Origin: an uncultured Acholeplasma sp. | GTDB taxonomy: Bacteria; Bacillota_I; Bacilli_A; Acholeplasmatales; Acholeplasmataceae | Direction: 5' to 3' | DNA: 49,046 nt | Assembly: GCA_937868795.1 (NCBI GenBank) | Contig: CALMNM010000060.1 | Coordinates: 1 to 49,046, forward strand | Shown here: piece by piece, positions 32,189-41,009 of the stretch | Numbering within the stretch: position 1 is the first letter of the stretch | Layout of the letters: each line of letters opens with the position of its first letter | Made by a program: the position numbers and the translations under genes | Notes under the pieces: generated by a model | The model's database searches: none | What the model was told of the DNA's origin: nothing | What the model saw: only the letters and a program-made list of their open reading frames with translations

Positions 32189-32213
32189 AAAAGAAAAAGG
32201 TGAATGTCACCTT
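32189..32213 (-). terminator. Terminator of the his operon
   Basis: AAGGTGA and TCACCTT form a 7-bp stem with a CAT loop, followed by TTTCTTTT on the minus strand; the stem begins at the hisIE stop. Confidence 0.88.
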
Positions 32214-32847
32214 ATTTCTTTTTTTGTTGTCTTGATTGAAGTTCTTTTTTAATCTCATCAAGGTGAATCCCCTGATTGACCATGAGGACAAGGGTATGAT
32301 AGACGAGATCGCTAATTTCATAAATGGTTTCAGATGCACTCTGATTTTTTGATGCAATGATGACTTCAGCTGTCTCTTCTCCAACTTTCTTTAAGATCTT
32401 ATCAAGTCCTTTGTTAAAGAGGTAGTTCGTGTAAGATCCTTCAATCGGATTGTTTTTACGATGAACGATGGTTTGATAAAGGTCACTTAGAAGATCTTTG
32501 GGTTGCGAATCACCCTGATCTTCAAGAATCACCCGATGAAAACACGACATTTCACCCGTATGACAGGCTACTCCCTCTTGGATCACTTCTAAAAGAAGCG
32601 TGTCTGCATCGCAATCATAAGATAATCGTTTGACATATTGAACGTTTCCTGAAGTTTCGCCCTTCTGCCAAAGTTCTTGTCGGCTACGACTAAAATAGGT
32701 TCCCATCTTCGTCTCAAGGGTGCGTTTTAATGCCTCTTCATTCATGTAGGCGAGCATGAGGACTTCTTTAGTTTCAAAGGATTGAACCACTACGGGAATT
32801 AATCCTTGTTCATTATATTTGAGTTCATTGAAATTGAACGTTTCCAT
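32212..32847 (-). CDS. hisIE: HisI/HisE: PR-AMP cyclohydrolase / PR-ATP pyrophosphatase
   Basis: A 211-residue bifunctional enzyme for steps 2 and 3 of histidine synthesis. The HisI half (about 1-110) has [38 protein letters not shown] and CHTG.MSCF with the zinc-binding Cys and Asp residues; the HisE half (about 115-205) has [21 protein letters not shown]. Last gene of the his operon; the terminator starts at its stop codon. Confidence 0.95.
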
Positions 32848-32850
32848 AAG

Positions 32851-33618
32851 TTATACCTTGACCTTTCTGACTGGAATGTGTTCATCACTTAGGCGTTCTT
32901 TGAGTTCAGAAATCGAGATTTCCTGATAGTGGAAGACAGAGGCTGCTAAAACCGCATCCACATTGGTTTTCTGCAAGCATGTGATAAAATCCTCCATCTT
33001 ACCCGCTCCTCCAGAAGCGATGACAGGGATACGAACTGCTTTGGTAATCTGGGTGAGTAATTCTAAGTCATATCCTTCTTTCATGCCGTCTGCATCAATG
33101 GAATTTATGACGAGTTCGCCTGCACCTAAGGTTTCTCCTTGTCTTGCCCAGAGAATGGCATCCATATGTGTGTTTTCACGACCGCCTTTGATGTAAACAT
33201 CATAGGTGCCTTGATCATTCTTTTTCGCATCGATGGATAATACGACACATTGATTACCGAATTTACGAGACGCCTCTTTAATTAGGTTGGGGTTCTTAAC
33301 CGCACCGCTATTGACAGAGATTTTATCTGCCCCACGACGTAAAATATCATAGAAATCTTCGATGGTCTCGACACCACCACCGACACAAAAGGGAATGTTA
33401 ATGTTTTTCGCGACTTCACTGACAAAATCTAAGGAAATCTTACGGTCTTCTGCCGAGGCGGTAATATCATAGAAAACAAGTTCATCCGCACCAAGATCAC
33501 TATAGCGTTTCCCTAAGGTCGCAGGATCATCAACATCTTGAATATCTTTAAATTTCTTCCCCTTGACCACACGACCTTGTCGTACATCTAAACAGGGAAT
33601 AATGCGTTTGCTTAACAT
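32851..33618 (-). CDS. hisF: Imidazole glycerol phosphate synthase, cyclase subunit
   Basis: 255-residue (beta-alpha)8 barrel making IGP and AICAR from PRFAR and ammonia supplied by HisH. N-terminal [19 protein letters not shown] with catalytic Asp11, DITAS, CVGGGVE, SINSGA-like phosphate loops and the second catalytic Asp in NSIDADGM. It overlaps hisA by 7 nt. Full length for the family. Confidence 0.96.
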
Positions 33619-34319
33619 GAGAGAACCTCCTTCAAATTAAGTCTTTTTTCATAGATTGCTTTACCGATGATCGCACCATCAAGCCCTAATCTTTTAAGAA
33701 CATCGATATCATCTAGTGTCGTGATACCACCGGATGCGATAATCTTCATCCTGGTGTTTTCTTTTAACCACTTATAGTCATTAAAGCTTGGACCAGAAAG
33801 CATACCATCTTTGGCAATATCGGTAAAGATTAACGTTTTTAACCCTTTGTTTTCTAATTTTTTGGCGAGTTCATAGGCATGAATCGATGTCGTATTCGTC
33901 CATCCGTGCGTCGTCACCATGCCCTCTTTCGCATCAATTGACACAGCAATTTTATCTGAGAAGTTGAACAACAGTTCTTCAAGTAATGATTCATCATCGA
34001 TGATGACTGTTCCTAAAATCACACGGGATACACCGAGATCCAGCCATGCTTTCGCTTGAGCAAAAGATCTTATGCCACCTCCAATTTGAATCGGGATACT
34101 CACTTCTTTAAGGATTGATTTGATGACTTCTTGATTGATGAGGATGCCTGATTCTGCTCCATTGAGGTCGATAATATGTAATGCTTCAGCGCCTTCTTTT
34201 TGATATGCTTTCGCTACCTCTACTGGATCGATATCATAGATTTTTTCTTGTTTAAAATCACCTTGGGTTAATCTGACACAACGACCATTTTTTAAATCAA
34301 TAGCTGGATAGATAATCAC
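33612..34319 (-). CDS. hisA: ProFAR isomerase
   Basis: 235-residue (beta-alpha)8 barrel catalysing the Amadori rearrangement of ProFAR to [23 protein letters not shown] carries the N-terminal catalytic Asp (PAIDL); QIGGGIRS and IIASGGI are the phosphate-binding loops; FTDIAKDGM contains the second catalytic Asp. The start overlaps the hisH stop by 4 nt. Confidence 0.96.
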
Positions 34320-34918
34320 TTAATCACCTCTAGGTAAGCCTTTAATAGATTTGCACCTACCATCCCGCTCTTTTCGGGGTGAAACTGTGTGGCGATCACG
34401 TGTCCTTGTCTTACGATTGCAGGGATCGTGACTCCATACTCTGTGGTCGCTAACCATTCTTCACCTGATGATTTGACATAGTAGGAATGGACAAAATAAA
34501 CTTGATCTCCCTCATCGATATATTTAACGAGTGGATCATTTCTTTTTATATCAAGCGAATTCCATCCCATATGAGGGACTTTGAGATCGATATCTAGATA
34601 GACAACATCGCCTTTTAATATCCCTAATCCTTCATGGACACCATATTCATACCCTTTTTCATAGAGAAGCTGCATCCCAAGACAAATCCCAAAGAGAAAT
34701 TTACCTTGGTTGACATGATCTAGGATCAATGGAATGAGTCCTGACTTGTTGAGTGCATTCATCGCATCCCCAAACGCACCGACACCTGGTAGAATGATGG
34801 ATGTCGCCTCGCGGATGATGGAGGGATCTTTGCTGATGATGGTTTTCAACCCTGCCCGTTCAAAGCCACGTTGAACCGAATCAAGATTTCCAACATCATA
34901 ATCCAAAATCACATTCAT
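34316..34918 (-). CDS. hisH: Imidazole glycerol phosphate synthase, glutaminase subunit
   Basis: 200-residue class I glutamine amidotransferase that delivers ammonia to HisF. LPGVGAFGDAM is the oxyanion region; FGICLGMQLL holds the catalytic Cys (about 80); the His-Glu pair is in TQFHPEKSG. YFVHSYYV is the conserved interface strand. It starts at TAATG, overlapping the hisB stop by 1 nt. Confidence 0.96.
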   Translation of the reverse strand: MNVILDYDVGNLDSVQRGFERAGLKTIISKDPSIIREATSIILPGVGAFGDAMNALNKSGLIPLILDHVNQGKFLFGICLGMQLLYEKGYEYGVHEGLGILKGDVVYLDIDLKVPHMGWNSLDIKRNDPLVKYIDEGDQVYFVHSYYVKSSGEEWLATTEYGVTIPAIVRQGHVIATQFHPEKSGMVGANLLKAYLEVIK

Positions 34919-35496
34919 TAGAGAACCCCTTTCGTTGAAGGTAGTTCATCTGATGTTTCTTTCACTGCAAGTTTCAAGGCTCTACCTAATCCTTTAAAGA
35001 TTGCTTCTACTTTATGGTGATCATTGATACCATCAAGAATTTCAATGTGTAATGTGATTCGTGCTTCTGTTGTGAAAGCTTTTAAAAATTCTTTGACATT
35101 TTCTAACGAAAGACCCCCAATCGATTCTCTTTTGAACTCTCCTTTAAAGATGAGCATAGGACGATTAGAGATATCGATCACGACTCTGACTAACGCTTCA
35201 TCCATAGGAAGATAAACTGAACTATAGCGTTCAATTCCCTTTTTATCACCTAAAGATTCATTGATCGCTTGACCTAATACGATTCCACAATCTTCGACTG
35301 TGTGGTGATCATCCACCCATACATCTCCTTTAGCAATAAGTGATAAATCAAAGTTCCCGTGGAAAGCAAAAAGCGTGAGCATATGATCAAAGAAGGGAAC
35401 ACCCGTATCCACCGTGATGTTTTTGGTTCCATCAAGATTGATGCTTATGGTGACGTCTGTTTCTTTTGTTTTTCGTGAAAGCGATCTAGTTCTCAT
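34918..35496 (-). CDS. hisB: Imidazoleglycerol-phosphate dehydratase
   Basis: 192 residues, the monofunctional dehydratase only: duplicated DHHxxE/EH..H manganese motifs (FFDHML, DDHHTVED, and EHINDHHKVEA-like EILDGINDHHKVEAIFKG). It lacks the N-terminal HAD histidinol-phosphatase domain of enterobacterial HisB, and no HisN or HisJ gene lies in the operon. It overlaps hisC by 4 nt. Confidence 0.95.
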   Translation of the reverse strand: MRTRSLSRKTKETDVTISINLDGTKNITVDTGVPFFDHMLTLFAFHGNFDLSLIAKGDVWVDDHHTVEDCGIVLGQAINESLGDKKGIERYSSVYLPMDEALVRVVIDISNRPMLIFKGEFKRESIGGLSLENVKEFLKAFTTEARITLHIEILDGINDHHKVEAIFKGLGRALKLAVKETSDELPSTKGVL

Positions 35497-36518
35497 AATA
35501 AAATCTCCTTTAACGCTTGATAGAGGATTTCATTTTCCTCTTGGGTTCCAATGGTGATACGGTAGCTACTTTTTGGGTTTTGATACGCACGAATGCGAAT
35601 CCCTCTTGCTAAAAGAGGAGCATATAAATCTTTGTTGGGTGATTCGATAAACAAGAAATTCCCCGATGAAGGATAGAGGGTGATGGGCAATGTAAGAAGT
35701 TTCTGATAAAGCGAATCTCTTCGTTGAACTACAGCATTGATTTCATCTTTCACTTGATTGCATTGACTTAATGCTTCAAGACCAATCCTTTGTGAAACTT
35801 GATTTAAATGATAGGGTGATTTTACTCGATTGACTTGATTGATAATCGTTTCATTGGCGATCATATAGCCCAGTCGTATCGATGCTAATCCAAAAGCTTT
35901 AGAGAACGTACGAAGCACGATCACATTGTCATGGACAAATCCCTCTTGAGATAATGAATCTTCTGGATTCGCAAATTCGATATATGCTTCATCAATCACC
36001 ACAAGAGCGTTTGTCGCCTGAATAATCTTTAGTATATCCTCTTTTTTTAATTGCCCACCTGTTGGATTATTGGGAGTGCATAGAAAGAGAATTTTAGGTT
36101 GATTTAATGTCACTTCTTCCATAAACTTAGGGACATCAAGTGTGTAATCATCATTCAACGGAAATCCTATATACTGTGTGCCATAGAGCGTCGCGTAAAT
36201 ACGGTACATACTGAATGTCGGTTCAAAACTCATGATAAGATCATCTTTTTCAGCAAAGGTTTTAATAATGAGCTCGATAAGTTCAGATGACCCATTTCCC
36301 TCAAGGATATATTTCAAATCGATGCTAAGATATTGACTTAAACCCTGTCGCAACTCAATCGCTTGATGATCGGGATAGCGATGAAATTCAAAATCTTTTA
36401 GAAAGAACCCTTCAGGAAAAAGAAAATTCCTCGTTTCATTGGCATCGAGACGTATCCCTTCAAATGGAGGTTCTACTTGATAAGGCTTAAGCGATGTTAA
36501 TGTCGTTTTGATGTCCAT
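35493..36518 (-). CDS. hisC: Histidinol-phosphate aminotransferase
   Basis: 341-residue PLP aminotransferase of fold type I. ANETRNF-type N-terminus, LCTPNNPTGG, VIDEAYIEF and the PLP-lysine region RTFSKAFGLASIRLGYMIA. The enzyme converts imidazole-acetol phosphate to histidinol phosphate with glutamate. 12 nt after hisD; it overlaps hisB by 4 nt. Confidence 0.94.
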   Translation of the reverse strand: MDIKTTLTSLKPYQVEPPFEGIRLDANETRNFLFPEGFFLKDFEFHRYPDHQAIELRQGLSQYLSIDLKYILEGNGSSELIELIIKTFAEKDDLIMSFEPTFSMYRIYATLYGTQYIGFPLNDDYTLDVPKFMEEVTLNQPKILFLCTPNNPTGGQLKKEDILKIIQATNALVVIDEAYIEFANPEDSLSQEGFVHDNVIVLRTFSKAFGLASIRLGYMIANETIINQVNRVKSPYHLNQVSQRIGLEALSQCNQVKDEINAVVQRRDSLYQKLLTLPITLYPSSGNFLFIESPNKDLYAPLLARGIRIRAYQNPKSSYRITIGTQEENEILYQALKEILL

Positions 36519-36530
36519 GACATCACCCCT

Positions 36531-37808
36531 TTATTTAAGACGTACTTTAATGGCGTTTGCATGAGCGGTTAAACCTTCCGCTTCAGCAAGTCCAATGATG
36601 GTTTTTGCAGTATCATTGAATGCTTTTTCACTATAATAAACCACAGATGATCGCTTCACAAAGTCATAAACGCCAAGTGGTGAAGCGAACTTCGCTGTTC
36701 CACTAGTAGGCAGTGTATGGTTGGGTCCAGCGACATAATCGCCTACGGGTTCGGGTGTAAAACGACCAAGGAAAATGGATCCAGCACTGTCAATAAGGTC
36801 TAGATATCGATCCGGATTCTCTACCATGAGTTCTAAGTGTTCAGGCGCAATGTCATTAGCAAGTTTGCAGGCAGAGATGAGTGAGTCAGTGATGATAATG
36901 GCTCCAAAATTAGTGAGCGAACTTTCGATAATTGACGCCCGAGATAATGTTTTGATGTCTCTTTCAATCGCTTGATCAACAGCGCTTGCTAATGCGGTAG
37001 AAGGTGTTAACAATAGAGCAGCTGCGTAAGGATCATGTTCTGCTTGCGCCATGAGGTCAGCCGCGATTTCATCTGGATTCGCAGGTTCATCCGCGATGAT
37101 CAAGACTTCCGATGGTCCAGCCACCAAATCGATACCCACATAGCCTGAGACCATTTTCTTCGCCATGGTAACATAGAGATTCCCCGGTCCAACAATTTTA
37201 TTCACCTTGGGGATTTGTTCTGTTCCATAGGTAAGAGCACCAATCGCTTGAGCACCACCAATTTTATAGATTTGATCGATACCCGCAAGTTTAGCAGCAA
37301 CCAAGATGACATCACGAATCTTCCCGTCACGATTCGGTGGTGTGGTCATTACTAAATTTTTCACACCAGCAATTTTTGCAGGTACTGCATTCATCAAGAC
37401 CGTGGAAGGATAACTGGCTGTACCCCCTGGGACGTAGATCCCTACCGATTCAATGGGTTTCACCCGCTGCTTGATAAGAATACCTTCTTTTTCTATCTGA
37501 ATGTCTTTGATGATTTGTTGTTGATGGTACGTTTCAATGTTTTCTTTCGCTTGTAATAAAAAGGTAAGCAGTTCAGGATCAATCGTCTTAAATGCTTCAT
37601 CGATTTCTTCATTGGTCACTAAAAAGGTATCAAGCCGAGCGCCATCAAAGGCTAATGTATACTTTTTTAACGCTTCATCACCATAGTTTTTGACCTGATT
37701 AAGAACTTCTTCCACCGTCTTATTCACTGTTGCAAAATCAAACTGTGTTCGCTTCATCAATTGATTGAACACTTGACTATTGTCTTTTTCATTTAGGATA
37801 CGAATCAT
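36531..37808 (-). CDS. hisD: Histidinol dehydrogenase
   Basis: 425 residues from ATG 37808 (MIRILNEKD), which has a GGAGG site and overlaps the hisG stop by 4 nt; an ATG 11 codons upstream is inside hisG and less likely. Motifs: GIYVPGGTASYPS, GGAQAIGALTYGTE, GPGNLYV, DLVAGPSEVLIIADE, with the catalytic Glu-His in DIAPEHLELM and the C-terminal GPNHTLPTSG. Zn-dependent four-electron oxidation of histidinol to histidine, the last step. Confidence 0.96.
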   Translation of the reverse strand: MIRILNEKDNSQVFNQLMKRTQFDFATVNKTVEEVLNQVKNYGDEALKKYTLAFDGARLDTFLVTNEEIDEAFKTIDPELLTFLLQAKENIETYHQQQIIKDIQIEKEGILIKQRVKPIESVGIYVPGGTASYPSTVLMNAVPAKIAGVKNLVMTTPPNRDGKIRDVILVAAKLAGIDQIYKIGGAQAIGALTYGTEQIPKVNKIVGPGNLYVTMAKKMVSGYVGIDLVAGPSEVLIIADEPANPDEIAADLMAQAEHDPYAAALLLTPSTALASAVDQAIERDIKTLSRASIIESSLTNFGAIIITDSLISACKLANDIAPEHLELMVENPDRYLDLIDSAGSIFLGRFTPEPVGDYVAGPNHTLPTSGTAKFASPLGVYDFVKRSSVVYYSEKAFNDTAKTIIGLAEAEGLTAHANAIKVRLK

Positions 37809-38431
37809 GATATAACCTCCCATAATGCATTTTTTATCCACGTGATTTTCTCGTATTTAAAGCGATAGCTCACGCGATTAGCAATCAATCTTGCACTGAT
37901 ATCGTGCATCACTTCCAATATATCTAGTCCGTTAGCCTTAAGTGTGCTTCCCGTTTCAACAATATCGACAATCACATCCGAAAGACCAACCAAAGGGGCG
38001 AGTTCCACAGATCCATTAAGCTTAATGATATCGATGGGTTGATTCTTCTTTTCAAAATAACGCTTCGTGACATTGGGATACTTGGTTGCGATTTTGAGTA
38101 CTTCATCTTTTTGCATATCATAGGATGTTTTTCCTGCAACCGCGAAGCGACATTTTCCAAAACCAAGATCGATGAGTTCATAGACGTCTGCTTGGTCTTC
38201 CATGAGTGAATCCTTACCGATAATCCCAAGATCAGCGACCCCTCGTTCCACATAAGTGATCACATCAGAGGGTTTAACTAGCATATAGGAAAGTTCTTGA
38301 TTTTGATCAGTGAAGATCAGTTTGCGCGAGGTATCATCGATCCCATCTCCTAAACCTATCCTCTTTAAAACTTCAATGGTTTGATCGCCTAAGCGTCCTT
38401 TGGGGAGGGCAATCGTAAGTTTATTTTTCAT
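37805..38431 (-). CDS. hisG: ATP phosphoribosyltransferase, short form
   Basis: 208-residue HisG-S, the first committed enzyme, condensing ATP and PRPP. LTIALPKGRLGDQTIEVL, VADLGIIGKDSL and VDIVETGSTLKANGL are the family motifs, with the last forming the PRPP loop. It lacks the C-terminal regulatory domain of the long form, so HisZ (next gene upstream, 11-nt overlap) supplies histidine feedback. Confidence 0.96.
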   Translation of the reverse strand: MKNKLTIALPKGRLGDQTIEVLKRIGLGDGIDDTSRKLIFTDQNQELSYMLVKPSDVITYVERGVADLGIIGKDSLMEDQADVYELIDLGFGKCRFAVAGKTSYDMQKDEVLKIATKYPNVTKRYFEKKNQPIDIIKLNGSVELAPLVGLSDVIVDIVETGSTLKANGLDILEVMHDISARLIANRVSYRFKYEKITWIKNALWEVIS

Positions 38432-39374
38432 TCTTTAATTTCTCCTTGAGCAATTCTGTGGTGTTTAAGGAAAAGCCAATCGCGGGTAACTCTTTGCCTA
38501 ATTGTTTGGTTAATGAGTCATAGCGTCCACCTTTAAGAAGAGGGAAGGGAGTTCCTTGTAAAAAGGCCATAAACACGATACCATCATAATAGTCATAATC
38601 AGAAATCAATCCTAAATCGATCGTTAATTTAATCTTAGGAGACACTTTCTCAATGGCTTCGATCAAATGACTCAGTTCATTTAAGGGTTCTTTGAGTTCA
38701 TCGTCTAGTGCTAGTAATGCAAGTTTTTGCTCGATGTCAGTCATTGATCCCTGAAGAGTAAGAAGGTTCGCCAGAATATCGGTCTCGATAGACTTGGGTC
38801 GATTGCTTAAATAGCGATTTATTCCTGCTTGATTTTTATAGTAAATCTGGGTCTTCAATTCTGCGGTATCGTCCTTCGTTAAATTCATTCTCTTAATGAC
38901 GATTTCCAAGAAACGGGAGTGATTGATTTCGATAAGATAGGGGAGTTGGTCGTTTTCAAAGATACTCGCGGCTAATAGGATGACATCACGATCTACATCG
39001 ACACCCGCTCGACCCAAATATTCAATCCCAAATTGTTTTCTTTCTTCGATATGACCATCTTTCCCTTTTACAAATGTGGTCGATAGATAAGATAATTTAA
39101 GTTCTTTAAGATTCCATTTAGGGAGCACATGCTTGATAATCGATGTCGTCAAATCAGGTCTTAGCAGTAAGATTTGTCCTTGTGTATTGATCAGCTTCAC
39201 CGTATTTTCCTTCTTGATTCGGGGATTCATCATGGTAAATTGATCATAATCCTCAAAGAAAGGAGGTTCGAACATCATATAACCTGCTTTTTTAGCCATT
39301 TCTTCAAGTCGTTGATTGAGTTGTTGTTTTTTGGATAAATAACGAAGTTCTTCGTTGAGTTGTAGAAATTGCAT
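38421..39374 (-). CDS. hisZ: ATP phosphoribosyltransferase regulatory subunit
   Basis: 317-residue paralogue of the histidyl-tRNA synthetase catalytic core lacking the anticodon-binding domain. Motif 2-like VKLINTQGQILLLRPDLTTSI and the C-terminal FLQGTPFPLLKGGRYDSL are visible. It forms a hetero-octamer with short-form HisG and senses histidine. First structural gene of the his operon, with AAGGAG 7 nt before the ATG, right after the attenuator. Confidence 0.93.
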   Translation of the reverse strand: MQFLQLNEELRYLSKKQQLNQRLEEMAKKAGYMMFEPPFFEDYDQFTMMNPRIKKENTVKLINTQGQILLLRPDLTTSIIKHVLPKWNLKELKLSYLSTTFVKGKDGHIEERKQFGIEYLGRAGVDVDRDVILLAASIFENDQLPYLIEINHSRFLEIVIKRMNLTKDDTAELKTQIYYKNQAGINRYLSNRPKSIETDILANLLTLQGSMTDIEQKLALLALDDELKEPLNELSHLIEAIEKVSPKIKLTIDLGLISDYDYYDGIVFMAFLQGTPFPLLKGGRYDSLTKQLGKELPAIGFSLNTTELLKEKLKNEK

Positions 39375-39390
39375 ATGTCTTCTCCTTATA

Positions 39391-39495
39391 AATAAAAAAT
39401 CGGATCGCTTGAATCTGATCCGACCTAAGTGAAGGAAGATTCAAGCCACAGCATAAAGAGGGCCTGATTTTCCTTTTTGGAAAAAGCCCTTTATG
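39391..39495 (-). promoter_or_regulatory. his operon transcription attenuator
   Basis: Read on the minus strand. (1) A pause-type hairpin: CATAAAGGGC (39495-39486), overlapping the leader stop codon, pairs with GCCCTCTTTATG (39463-39452) with a 2-nt bulge. (2) Antiterminator: GCTTGAATCT (39446-39437) pairs perfectly over 10 bp with AGATTCAAGC (39416-39407). (3) Terminator: TCGGATC (39422-39416) and GATCCGA (39406-39400), whose loop is the second antiterminator arm, followed by TTTTTTATTT (39399-39390). Structures 2 and 3 compete. With the preceding His-rich leader peptide this is ribosome-mediated attenuation. No T-box sequence was found. Confidence 0.85.
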
Positions 39496-39535
39496 AATGA
39501 TGATGAAGATGGGAAATACATAAAATAAAAGCCAT
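39491..39535 (-). CDS. hisL: His operon leader peptide
   Basis: 14 codons encoding MAFILCISHLHHHS, with four His in the last six residues before TAA. An AAAGGGG ribosome binding site lies 6 nt before the ATG. It sits about 38 nt from the predicted start site and directly upstream of the attenuator hairpins. When charged tRNA-His is scarce a ribosome would stall at the HLHHH codons and change RNA folding downstream. It is functionally like enterobacterial HisL, though not similar in its other residues. It is too short for standard gene finders. Confidence 0.88.
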   Translation of the reverse strand: MAFILCISHLHHHS

Positions 39536-39579
39536 GCTTTACCCCTTTATCACTTTACTATAATAAAGTATACAAAGAG

Positions 39580-39608
39580 ATTATAACATAGCTTATTTCC
39601 ACATGCAA
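39580..39608 (-). promoter_or_regulatory. Promoter of the his operon
   Basis: TTGCAT (39608-39603), exactly 17 bp, TATAAT (39585-39580). The start would be near 39573, leaving a leader of about 200 nt to hisZ. Confidence 0.8.
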
Positions 39609-39627
39609 GAAAAAGAATTACTTTTTT

Positions 39628-40443
39628 TTAACGTCTTCGTCTAAAGATACCCATACCACCGGAAGAACCACCGCCACCTTTATTGCGTACGGCAAGGCCT
39701 CCACCTCCCAAAACGAGGAAGATCACCACATAAAGAATCGCGCTCAAACGATCCGAAGAACTCGCAAACGGTGATAACAAATAAAGAATAAATGATAAAG
39801 GAAGATGTGAGTCATCATCTGCAACATCGGGGTTATTGATTAAATATTCACGAAAGACTTCCATATCGTAATTGAACGATTCATAACCATAGGCTTCGGT
39901 ATAAATCACGGAGAGAAGCTCATACACCATGTGCATAACGGAAATATCAAGTTCATCAAACTCCCATTCATCACTATAAAGGGTGTTATCCACAATCGCT
40001 CCTAATTCAGCTGGGGTTAAATATTGTTCCATCCGATATCCAACTTCAACTTGAGTTTCCTTTAACACGAGATAATCAATCTCATCGATGGTTTCTGGCA
40101 TGAAAAACATGATCACGAGTAATCCCATGTCATTTTTACCAATTTCCCATTGTCTAAAGATTTCTGTTTTATCGTATTCTGCAATCTCAGAGAGTGTTTC
40201 AACCTCAAAGGTTGCAATCACGATCTGAGCACCACCATCCACTTCATCTTCTGTCCACTCGTAGAGTCTTTCGCCCTCGCGAGTGATGCTAGATCGAGTC
40301 GCTTGATAAAGCACATTGGCATAGTCATTGACATAGTAATCTGCTGTAGGTCGGGGATACTCATCGTTTTGACAAGCAAAAAGGATCAGTGAAAGACCAC
40401 TGATCAATATAAGCAAACTGAAATTTCTTATCTTCCTAATCAT
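39628..40443 (-). CDS. TPM domain lipoprotein
   Basis: 271 residues. The signal peptide ends in a lipobox-like LILFAC (Cys about 24), so it is probably lipid-anchored outside. The TPM domain follows (YYVNDYANVLYQATRSSI, AQIVIATFE, GKNDMGLLVIMFF), then a membrane helix near 230-250 and a Gly-rich Arg-rich tail (GGGGSSGGMGIFRRRR). TPM proteins often pair with LemA; here the start overlaps the lemA stop by 4 nt, and lemA is upstream. Envelope maintenance or phosphatase roles have been proposed for the family. A weak A/T hairpin follows as a possible terminator. Confidence 0.85.
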   Translation of the reverse strand: MIRKIRNFSLLILISGLSLILFACQNDEYPRPTADYYVNDYANVLYQATRSSITREGERLYEWTEDEVDGGAQIVIATFEVETLSEIAEYDKTEIFRQWEIGKNDMGLLVIMFFMPETIDEIDYLVLKETQVEVGYRMEQYLTPAELGAIVDNTLYSDEWEFDELDISVMHMVYELLSVIYTEAYGYESFNYDMEVFREYLINNPDVADDDSHLPLSFILYLLSPFASSSDRLSAILYVVIFLVLGGGGLAVRNKGGGGSSGGMGIFRRRR

Positions 40444-41009
40444 TCAAAATCGATGACGGGAACTTCATCAGCACCGTCATTTAATTTCCAATAATCATAA
40501 TCTCTTTCAAAACCGAAAAGCGATGCATAAAGCACTCTTGGAAAGCGTCTGATTGACGTATTGTAATCCTGAACGGATTCGTTATAATCTCGACGTGCAA
40601 TGGATAATGCGGATTCCATGGATGATATTTCATCGATAAGTGCATAATATCCAGCATTGGCAGTAATAAGTGGATTATCTTCAACAACCACAAGAAGTTG
40701 TGTGAATGCAGCTGCTTCTGCTGCATCTGCTTCAATCAATTCTTCCATCGAAGATGCAGCACTGTATTGCGCTCTTGCTGCAGTAATAGCATTATAAATG
40801 GTTTCTGCATGTTCTTGTAGACCTGAAACAGCGCCGAGGATCTGTCCAATCTTATCGTGACGTTCCTGTAATCTATTTTCGACTTGGGAATATTTTGCTT
40901 GAATATCTTCGTCCAAAGTCACAAGTCCATTATATCCCGTGATGAGCATCACGGCTAAAACAACAACAATAAATCCTAATACGGCAACTCCAAGATACTT
41001 CTTAGGCAT
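40440..41009 (-). CDS. lemA: LemA family protein
   Basis: 189 residues: an N-terminal membrane helix (about 7-25) followed by the LemA helical domain (EDIQAKYSQVENRLQERHDKIGQIL, ARAQYSAASSMEE, DNPLITANAGYYALIDEISSMES, ARRDYNESVQDYNTSIRRFP). The long antiparallel helices are typical. LemA proteins are small membrane-anchored proteins of unclear function, often next to TPM-domain genes, as here. A GGAGG site precedes ATG 41009. Confidence 0.92.
   Translation of the reverse strand: MPKKYLGVAVLGFIVVVLAVMLITGYNGLVTLDEDIQAKYSQVENRLQERHDKIGQILGAVSGLQEHAETIYNAITAARAQYSAASSMEELIEADAAEAAAFTQLLVVVEDNPLITANAGYYALIDEISSMESALSIARRDYNESVQDYNTSIRRFPRVLYASLFGFERDYDYWKLNDGADEVPVIDFE

Follow-up and report, generated by a model that had tools for sequence, protein, structure and literature searches.

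A probable histidine leader attenuator and a predicted HisR operator at the his promoter of a Mollicute

Results

The his locus and its leader

We analyzed the region upstream of a histidine biosynthesis (his) operon in a 49,046-nucleotide (nt) stretch of DNA from an uncultured Acholeplasma sp. (contig CALMNM010000060.1; hereafter the window). The operon is preceded by a leader that carries a short His-rich open reading frame (ORF) and a set of alternative RNA hairpins, and its promoter carries a palindrome that is a predicted operator of the repressor HisR. A preliminary description of this DNA had proposed that a His-rich leader peptide and attenuator control the operon in a Gram-positive-type genome. 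The host in fact belongs to a Mollicute family, the Acholeplasmataceae (order Acholeplasmatales), and a scan for named relatives showed that its genus also holds the isolate Peloplasma aerotolerans M4Ah. The features of the locus, with the basis of each assignment in brackets, are:

32212-39374, minus strand: his operon, comprising hisZ, hisG (short form), hisD, hisC, hisB, hisH, hisA, hisF, and hisIE (NCBIfam)
39394-39424, minus strand: intrinsic terminator, D:E plus U tract (stem –9.9 kcal/mol)
39407-39416, minus strand: segment D, AGATTCAAGC, antiterminator partner of C and terminator loop in the window genome (folding)
39437-39447, minus strand: segment C, GGCTTGAATCT, partner of B or D (folding)
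39452-39473, minus strand: segment B, partner of A or, through part of its length, of C (folding; B:C read from sequence)
39479-39495, minus strand: segment A, overlapping the stop codon of the leader ORF (folding)
39491-39535, minus strand: leader peptide ORF, MAFILCISHLHHHS (sequence; kept in relatives)
39542-39548, minus strand: ribosome-binding site AAAGGGG of the leader ORF (sequence)
39552-39569, minus strand: predicted HisR operator ACTTTA-N6-TAAAGT (ACTTTATTATAGTAAAGT), just downstream of the –10 element (consensus match, hisR co-occurrence)
39580-39585, minus strand: –10 element TATAAT, with a TGn extension at 39588-39587 (sequence)
39603-39608, minus strand: –35 element TTGCAT (sequence)

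The hisZ assignment has a top NCBIfam family score of 207.6 bits, below the curated cut-off of 271.65. The promoter (sigma-70-type, TTGCAT and TATAAT with a spacer of 17 nt), the ribosome-binding site, the leader ORF, and a hairpin over its stop codon had all been named in the preliminary description, and we found every one of them in the sequence. The extended element TGnTATAAT, or a near variant, is present in 14 of 15 leaders inspected. The control His codons of MAFILCISHLHHHS lie at 39511-39509 and 39505-39497 on the minus strand, and the RNA that follows is a chain of alternative pairings, A:B, B:C, C:D, and D:E. In A:B, the stop-codon hairpin, CATAAAGGGCTTTTTCC at 39495-39479 pairs with 39473-39452; when the window is folded without a modeled ribosome, the segment A helix reaches back to the last His codon. 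In B:C, 39467-39461 pairs with 39447-39441. C:D is the antiterminator, a perfect 10-base-pair (bp) duplex between GCTTGAATCT at 39446-39437 and AGATTCAAGC at 39416-39407, exactly the coordinates given earlier. The U-tailed terminator stem had likewise been recognized, although the span of 39422-39400 assigned to it was slightly short. The B:C pairing, the HisR palindrome at 39569-39552, and a possible inverted direction of the switch were absent from that description.

Conservation of the leader and support for its pairings

Of the 20 genomes of the genus, 14 match hisD, 13 of them above the cut-off; in the remaining one, G005, the gene is truncated at a contig end. Exactly these 14 also have hisZ, and each of them carries a His-rich leader ORF before it. 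A genome of another genus in the same family (G026) has a His leader before hisZ too, and overall the leader was found at each of the 15 hisZ loci with a match of E ≤ 7e-73. None of the next-best hisZ loci (L016-L019, E about 1e-25 to 1e-27) has a His leader, nor does the region upstream of hisZ at L106 or any of 12 scanned loci of families f16 and f23; six more loci (L047, L054-L058) have one. Across 34 modules, the His codons comprise 118 CAT and 12 CAC, and an intrinsic terminator is present in 24 of 24 modules of the first set. In G005 we additionally observed a second, near-identical His leader (L178, G005:C152:1-200) that is cut by the contig end.

A covariance model built from 24 modules was searched in a family sample and in a phylum sample of 392 genomes. 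In the family sample, 17 of 23 rows were His leaders, one of them the truncated second copy of G005 (rows L075-L078 and the matches in G016 and G067 were discarded as chance), and His leaders also turned up in further families of the class. At E ≤ 0.01 the phylum sample gave 20 matches in 18 of its 392 genomes. Of these matches, 13 were his leaders, including 11 of 11 at E ≤ 2e-5, four of which came from the training set. The rows discarded were L088-L092, L094, which is antisense to a true site, and L093, which precedes genes that we read as nrdG-like and LuxS-like. A protein search over the 392 phylum genomes additionally reached family f11, in which 13 of 13 further hisZ upstream regions inspected hold a similarly arranged His leader, although the covariance model had matched none of these 13 genomes in the phylum sample. 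When the window genome was searched for more copies, only the his site was significant (next best E 0.05).

The pairings were assessed by exchanging arms between leaders and by counting compensatory changes. For duplexes between the C region and D, the native mean was –15.6 kcal/mol versus –12.0 kcal/mol after swapping, and 0 of 20,000 permutations reached the native sum in this register-free test; the same test for A:B also gave 0 of 20,000. In an alignment fitted to B:C and D:E, 94% of cells for those pairings were paired, with 117 double-change cells versus 28.5 in shuffles, while C:D, which the alignment was not fitted to, was 74% paired with 21 double-change cells versus 9.2. Both kinds of support for C:D are inflated by the kinship of the sequences. 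Column counts give no support to A:B (67.8% paired, 25 of 500 shuffles as good). In the window, A is of low complexity and 97 of 100 shuffles do as well as the native sequence, so a shuffled-A control is uninformative there. Minimum free energy folds of the pre-terminator partial transcript in which a ribosome occupies the first His codon contain A:B and then D paired with upstream sequence. The 161-nt leader of the window is more stable than its shuffles (z –3.3; 1 of 200 as good).

A chance His-rich ORF beside chance hairpins would be easier to credit if such ORFs were common, and the window does hold others: requiring at least four His within six residues, we counted six mini-ORF starts, five of them elsewhere (belonging to three distinct ORFs), whereas 20 shuffles gave 0-3 each. 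Such an ORF is therefore not decisive by itself; the leader is judged not to be chance because it is conserved before hisZ, and with conservation and covariation over 24 to 34 modules a chance origin is scarcely credible. A T-box, or any other known riboswitch, is an equally implausible identity for the element. Although the window genome has 12 T-box matches (seven above the cut-off), the window has no Rfam match at the gathering score, and a permissive search of 39350-39700, a check that the preliminary description had suggested, returned no T-box and only families at chance level. T-boxes are thus used in this genome but not for the his operon, since these matches lie elsewhere and none is in the leader. 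RF00514, the enterobacterial His_leader, matched neither the window nor 17 related loci (E. coli control 131.6 bits), and we rejected the gain of an enterobacterial leader by transfer on that ground. A T-box on contig C3 was considered as the upstream element of hisS, a placement that its sequence did not support. Separately, the region upstream of a hisZ match in family f16 (L113, genome G457) shows by eye a T-box-like GGTGGAACCACG stretch and a terminator-like hairpin.

Before the his operon we thus find a short ORF with a run of His codons that is predicted to be translatable, followed by a terminator and a mutually exclusive antiterminator, as judged by prediction and covariation. The preliminary description had raised the case of relatives that lack the His codons while keeping the hairpins; the relatives retain the His codons alongside the hairpins and their complementary arms. 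From the anatomy, its conservation, and the C:D covariation, all of which are read from the sequence, we conclude that a ribosome-mediated His-leader attenuator very probably governs the operon, as had been proposed.

A predicted HisR operator at the same promoter

The palindrome downstream of the –10 element is the exact core of the HisR consensus cacTTTAnnnnnnTAAAgtg printed by Ashniev et al. (PMC9413887). The window would be expected to hold 0.15 such sites at ≤1 mismatch, and in the 1.99-Mb assembly the palindrome is the sole exact site of the searched pattern, while the reversed control pattern scores 2 and 1. The window genome, which has the attenuator, also has hisR: it encodes a YerC/TrpR-family protein (TIGR02531, 129.7 bits against a cut-off of 42.2) that matches PF01371. 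In the sections of the published regulon study that we draw on, yerC is the B. subtilis gene for HisR, and histidine-dependent binding is shown for HisR of R. gnavus (PMC9413887).

To relate site and repressor, we scored hisR in 30 leader-bearing genomes and examined 70 nt next to each leader. The palindrome (≤1 mismatch) is present in 11 of 12 genomes with hisR and in 0 of 18 without (Fisher 2e-7), and in those 11 genomes its first position lies 34-40 nt upstream of the start codon of the leader. The association is seen within the genus (7/8 versus 0/6) and outside it (4/4 versus 0/12). Sub-cut-off PF01371 fragments in G005, G337, and G226 were scored as no hisR, and 8 of the 13 f11 genomes and the loci L047 and L054-L058 stand outside the counts; among these loci, L047 and L056 have the palindrome. 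The cultured, free-living P. aerotolerans (G006) has the attenuator and no PF01371 match; in the excerpted text of its published description, histidine is not named among the missing pathways (PMC11122141). In four genomes (G009, G012, G013, G016), the palindrome also lies directly before a gene for an SBP_bac_3 amino-acid ATP-binding cassette transporter, with hisR adjacent or one gene off. At L106 (genome G074) and L016-L018, a HisR-type palindrome, read by eye, stands before hisZ in genomes that have hisR, and these loci apparently use the repressor without the attenuator.

Several points weigh against reading the palindrome as an operator. Across these genomes the pattern is about as frequent as its reversed control, so that only its placement is telling. 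The Fisher values ignore relatedness. In G011 (locus L008), hisR is present without the palindrome, and the promoter carries another dyad, ACATGTGAAAAACATGT, instead. The palindrome might, moreover, be no operator at all but a 5′ RNA hairpin that protects the transcript, leaving the attenuator as the only control; three loci of genomes that lack hisR (L012, L014, L049) have hairpins of other sequence at the transcript start (z –2.8, –1.7, and –2.2), which are perhaps mRNA-stabilizing. Against this alternative, which we consider improbable, the HisR consensus tracks the hisR gene across the leader-bearing genomes and recurs before the transporter genes near hisR. Part of the dyad could act as a 5′ RNA hairpin too. 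On this co-occurrence of operator and hisR, we regard the palindrome as a likely HisR operator, and we infer that HisR binds it in response to histidine: when histidine is plentiful, the repressor would occupy the palindrome at the transcript start, and transcripts that escape would then be tested by the ribosome-mediated attenuator.

Tandem modules and neighboring genes

At three loci in metagenome-assembled genomes, two of them titled Candidatus Izimaplasma, two complete modules stand in tandem before hisZ, each with a leader ORF and a terminator:

L054:2615-3012, tandem His-leader modules
L055:399-798, tandem His-leader modules
L057:2633-3026, tandem His-leader modules

In L054 and L057, the second peptide combines His with Tyr codons. 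In the window, the his leader is preceded upstream by a pair of genes (39628-41009, minus strand) that look as if they encode a LemA protein and a secreted/TPM-like protein; the second of these has no NCBIfam match.

Direction of the switch

In E. coli hisL, the stalled ribosome itself covers A, and amino-acid attenuators of the textbook type are OFF in the absence of leader translation. The five-segment chain of the window may work the other way. With charged tRNA-His ample, the ribosome would pass the His codons, reach the stop codon, and cover A, so that B:C forms, D is free for E, and RNA polymerase terminates. With charged tRNA-His scarce, the ribosome would halt on the first His codons and leave enough of A free for A:B, releasing C for C:D, so that the terminator is not formed in time and the operon is transcribed. 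An untranslated leader would give readthrough, not termination.

We modeled the ribosome as a footprint that masks the RNA and folded pre-terminator transcripts. Pairing of D was higher (by >0.5 nt) with the ribosome stalled at the first His than at the stop codon in 29 of 34 modules with a 13-nt footprint, 27 with 10 nt, and 28 with 16 nt, and the untranslated leader behaved like the stalled one in 24, 22, and 22 modules (footprints 13, 10, and 16 nt). For the window, footprints of 13 and 16 nt discriminate clearly, and the equilibrium probability of the terminator is 0.00 with a stalled ribosome and 0.97 with the ribosome at the stop codon. In the E. coli hisL control, D pairing was 6.3 for the untranslated leader versus 11.3-11.8 for the first-His stall, in agreement with the textbook OFF default. 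When leaders were folded from the first His codon, 23 of 34 modules had an A segment that began beyond the last His codon, while in E. coli A began 9 nt before that codon.

Much of this analysis can also be turned against the inverted direction. The ribosome model is crude equilibrium folding, and the complete terminator is favored in both ribosome states by most modules; the switch must therefore be kinetic, and the kinetics of folding, like the ribosome positions, would have to be as we suppose. In the window a 10-nt footprint makes no difference (14.1 stalled, 14.4 at the stop codon), and the E. coli control separates stall from stop poorly at 13 nt (11.7 versus 11.4) and well only at 10 and 16 nt. 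Stalls at later His codons weaken the effect, with every position above the stop value in 23 of 34 modules (footprint 13 nt), and the 13 further f11 leaders split into seven for the model, four opposed, and two ties. The geometry depends on treatment: without masking, 11 of 34 modules are exceptions, the window included, where the start of A coincides with the last His codon; when every leader is folded under the first-His mask, A of E. coli begins 5 nt beyond the last His codon, and the median for the others is 9.5. A contrast seen in 32 of 34 modules arose from masking the relatives but not E. coli.

Alternatively, the element could be a classical attenuator of the hisL type, in which the stalled ribosome covers A, B:C forms, and the result is antitermination. 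The parts list is identical, E. coli works in this way, stalls on later His codons partly cover A, and the exceptions just described, in which the unmasked A helix reaches the His codons, fit it as well. B:C, however, has no overlap with the terminator arm, folding with A covered predicts the terminator, as in the window, and in 24 of 34 modules, unlike in E. coli, the untranslated leader behaves as the stalled one does. We consider the classical direction somewhat unlikely. For the inverted direction, in which a finishing ribosome terminates and a stalled one does not, belief and doubt are evenly balanced on these folding models, because the contrast with E. coli geometry is weaker under equal treatment.

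Discussion

The his genes of this Mollicute appear to be under dual control at one site, a repressor site and a His-rich leader peptide. As a whole, the explanation that joins a HisR operator to a leader attenuator of inverted direction seems to us reasonably probable. The wider proposal of a family spread through Bacilli and Mollicutes, with inverted direction and an untranslated leader that is ON, often with a HisR operator and sometimes in tandem, is tentative, and the sequences leave us slightly inclined to doubt it. If the inverted direction is true, a natural family with the reverse default would indicate that an attenuator takes its direction from how many RNA segments it has and not from its principle. 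Promoters with both HisR and an attenuator also complicate the picture of RNA attenuators replacing HisR.

The kind of element is already known. The preliminary description had suggested an independent origin or a poorly described case, which is only partly right. In the published portions consulted, His-leader attenuators of Firmicutes are reported by Ashniev et al. (2022, PMC9413887) from Peptostreptococcaceae, Erysipelotrichales, and the B. cereus group and, as His leader peptides, before hisZ and hisS* of bacilli (Naville and Gautheret 2010, PMC2965389). Further features go beyond these: the five-segment chain with possible inverted direction, the predicted HisR operator at the promoter, and the tandem attenuators in three relatives. 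Open-access titles and abstract beginnings, with subscription papers outside the scope of the search, gave no Mollicute case, no his promoter with HisR plus attenuator, no tandem His attenuators, and no inverted direction.

Compared with known systems, the element resembles the Firmicutes His-leader attenuators, with which it shares a short leader peptide with a run of His codons (three to five in the portion of PMC9413887 consulted) and, ahead of the his operon or hisZ, a terminator with its antiterminator; it differs in that the window attenuator shares one promoter with a predicted HisR operator. The Erysipelotrichales attenuators may be the same element. With hisL of E. coli and Salmonella (RF00514) it shares ribosome-mediated attenuation through His codons, but there is no covariance match, and the predicted direction is inverted, a prediction as open to doubt as to belief. 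From the HisR (YerC) regulon it has the operator consensus, hisR in the genome, and, in relatives, a hisR-linked transporter, as described for A. laidlawii in the regulon study as excerpted (PMC9413887), whereas the window combines the operator with an attenuator at one promoter. The tandem relatives resemble the known tandem attenuators of Salmonella mgtCBR in having two short ORFs with attenuation in one leader, although mgtCBR, from the part of the report consulted (PMC3641672), apparently does not hold two copies of one His-codon module. The T-box (RF00230), a common amino-acid sensor of Firmicutes, occurs elsewhere in the window genome but is missing from the his leader. The E. coli trp operon places a TrpR-family repressor and leader-peptide attenuation on one promoter, as predicted for the window. 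The window would sense histidine rather than tryptophan and its RNA is unrelated, but the pairing of HisR with an attenuator would repeat the TrpR-plus-attenuator design of trp for histidine.
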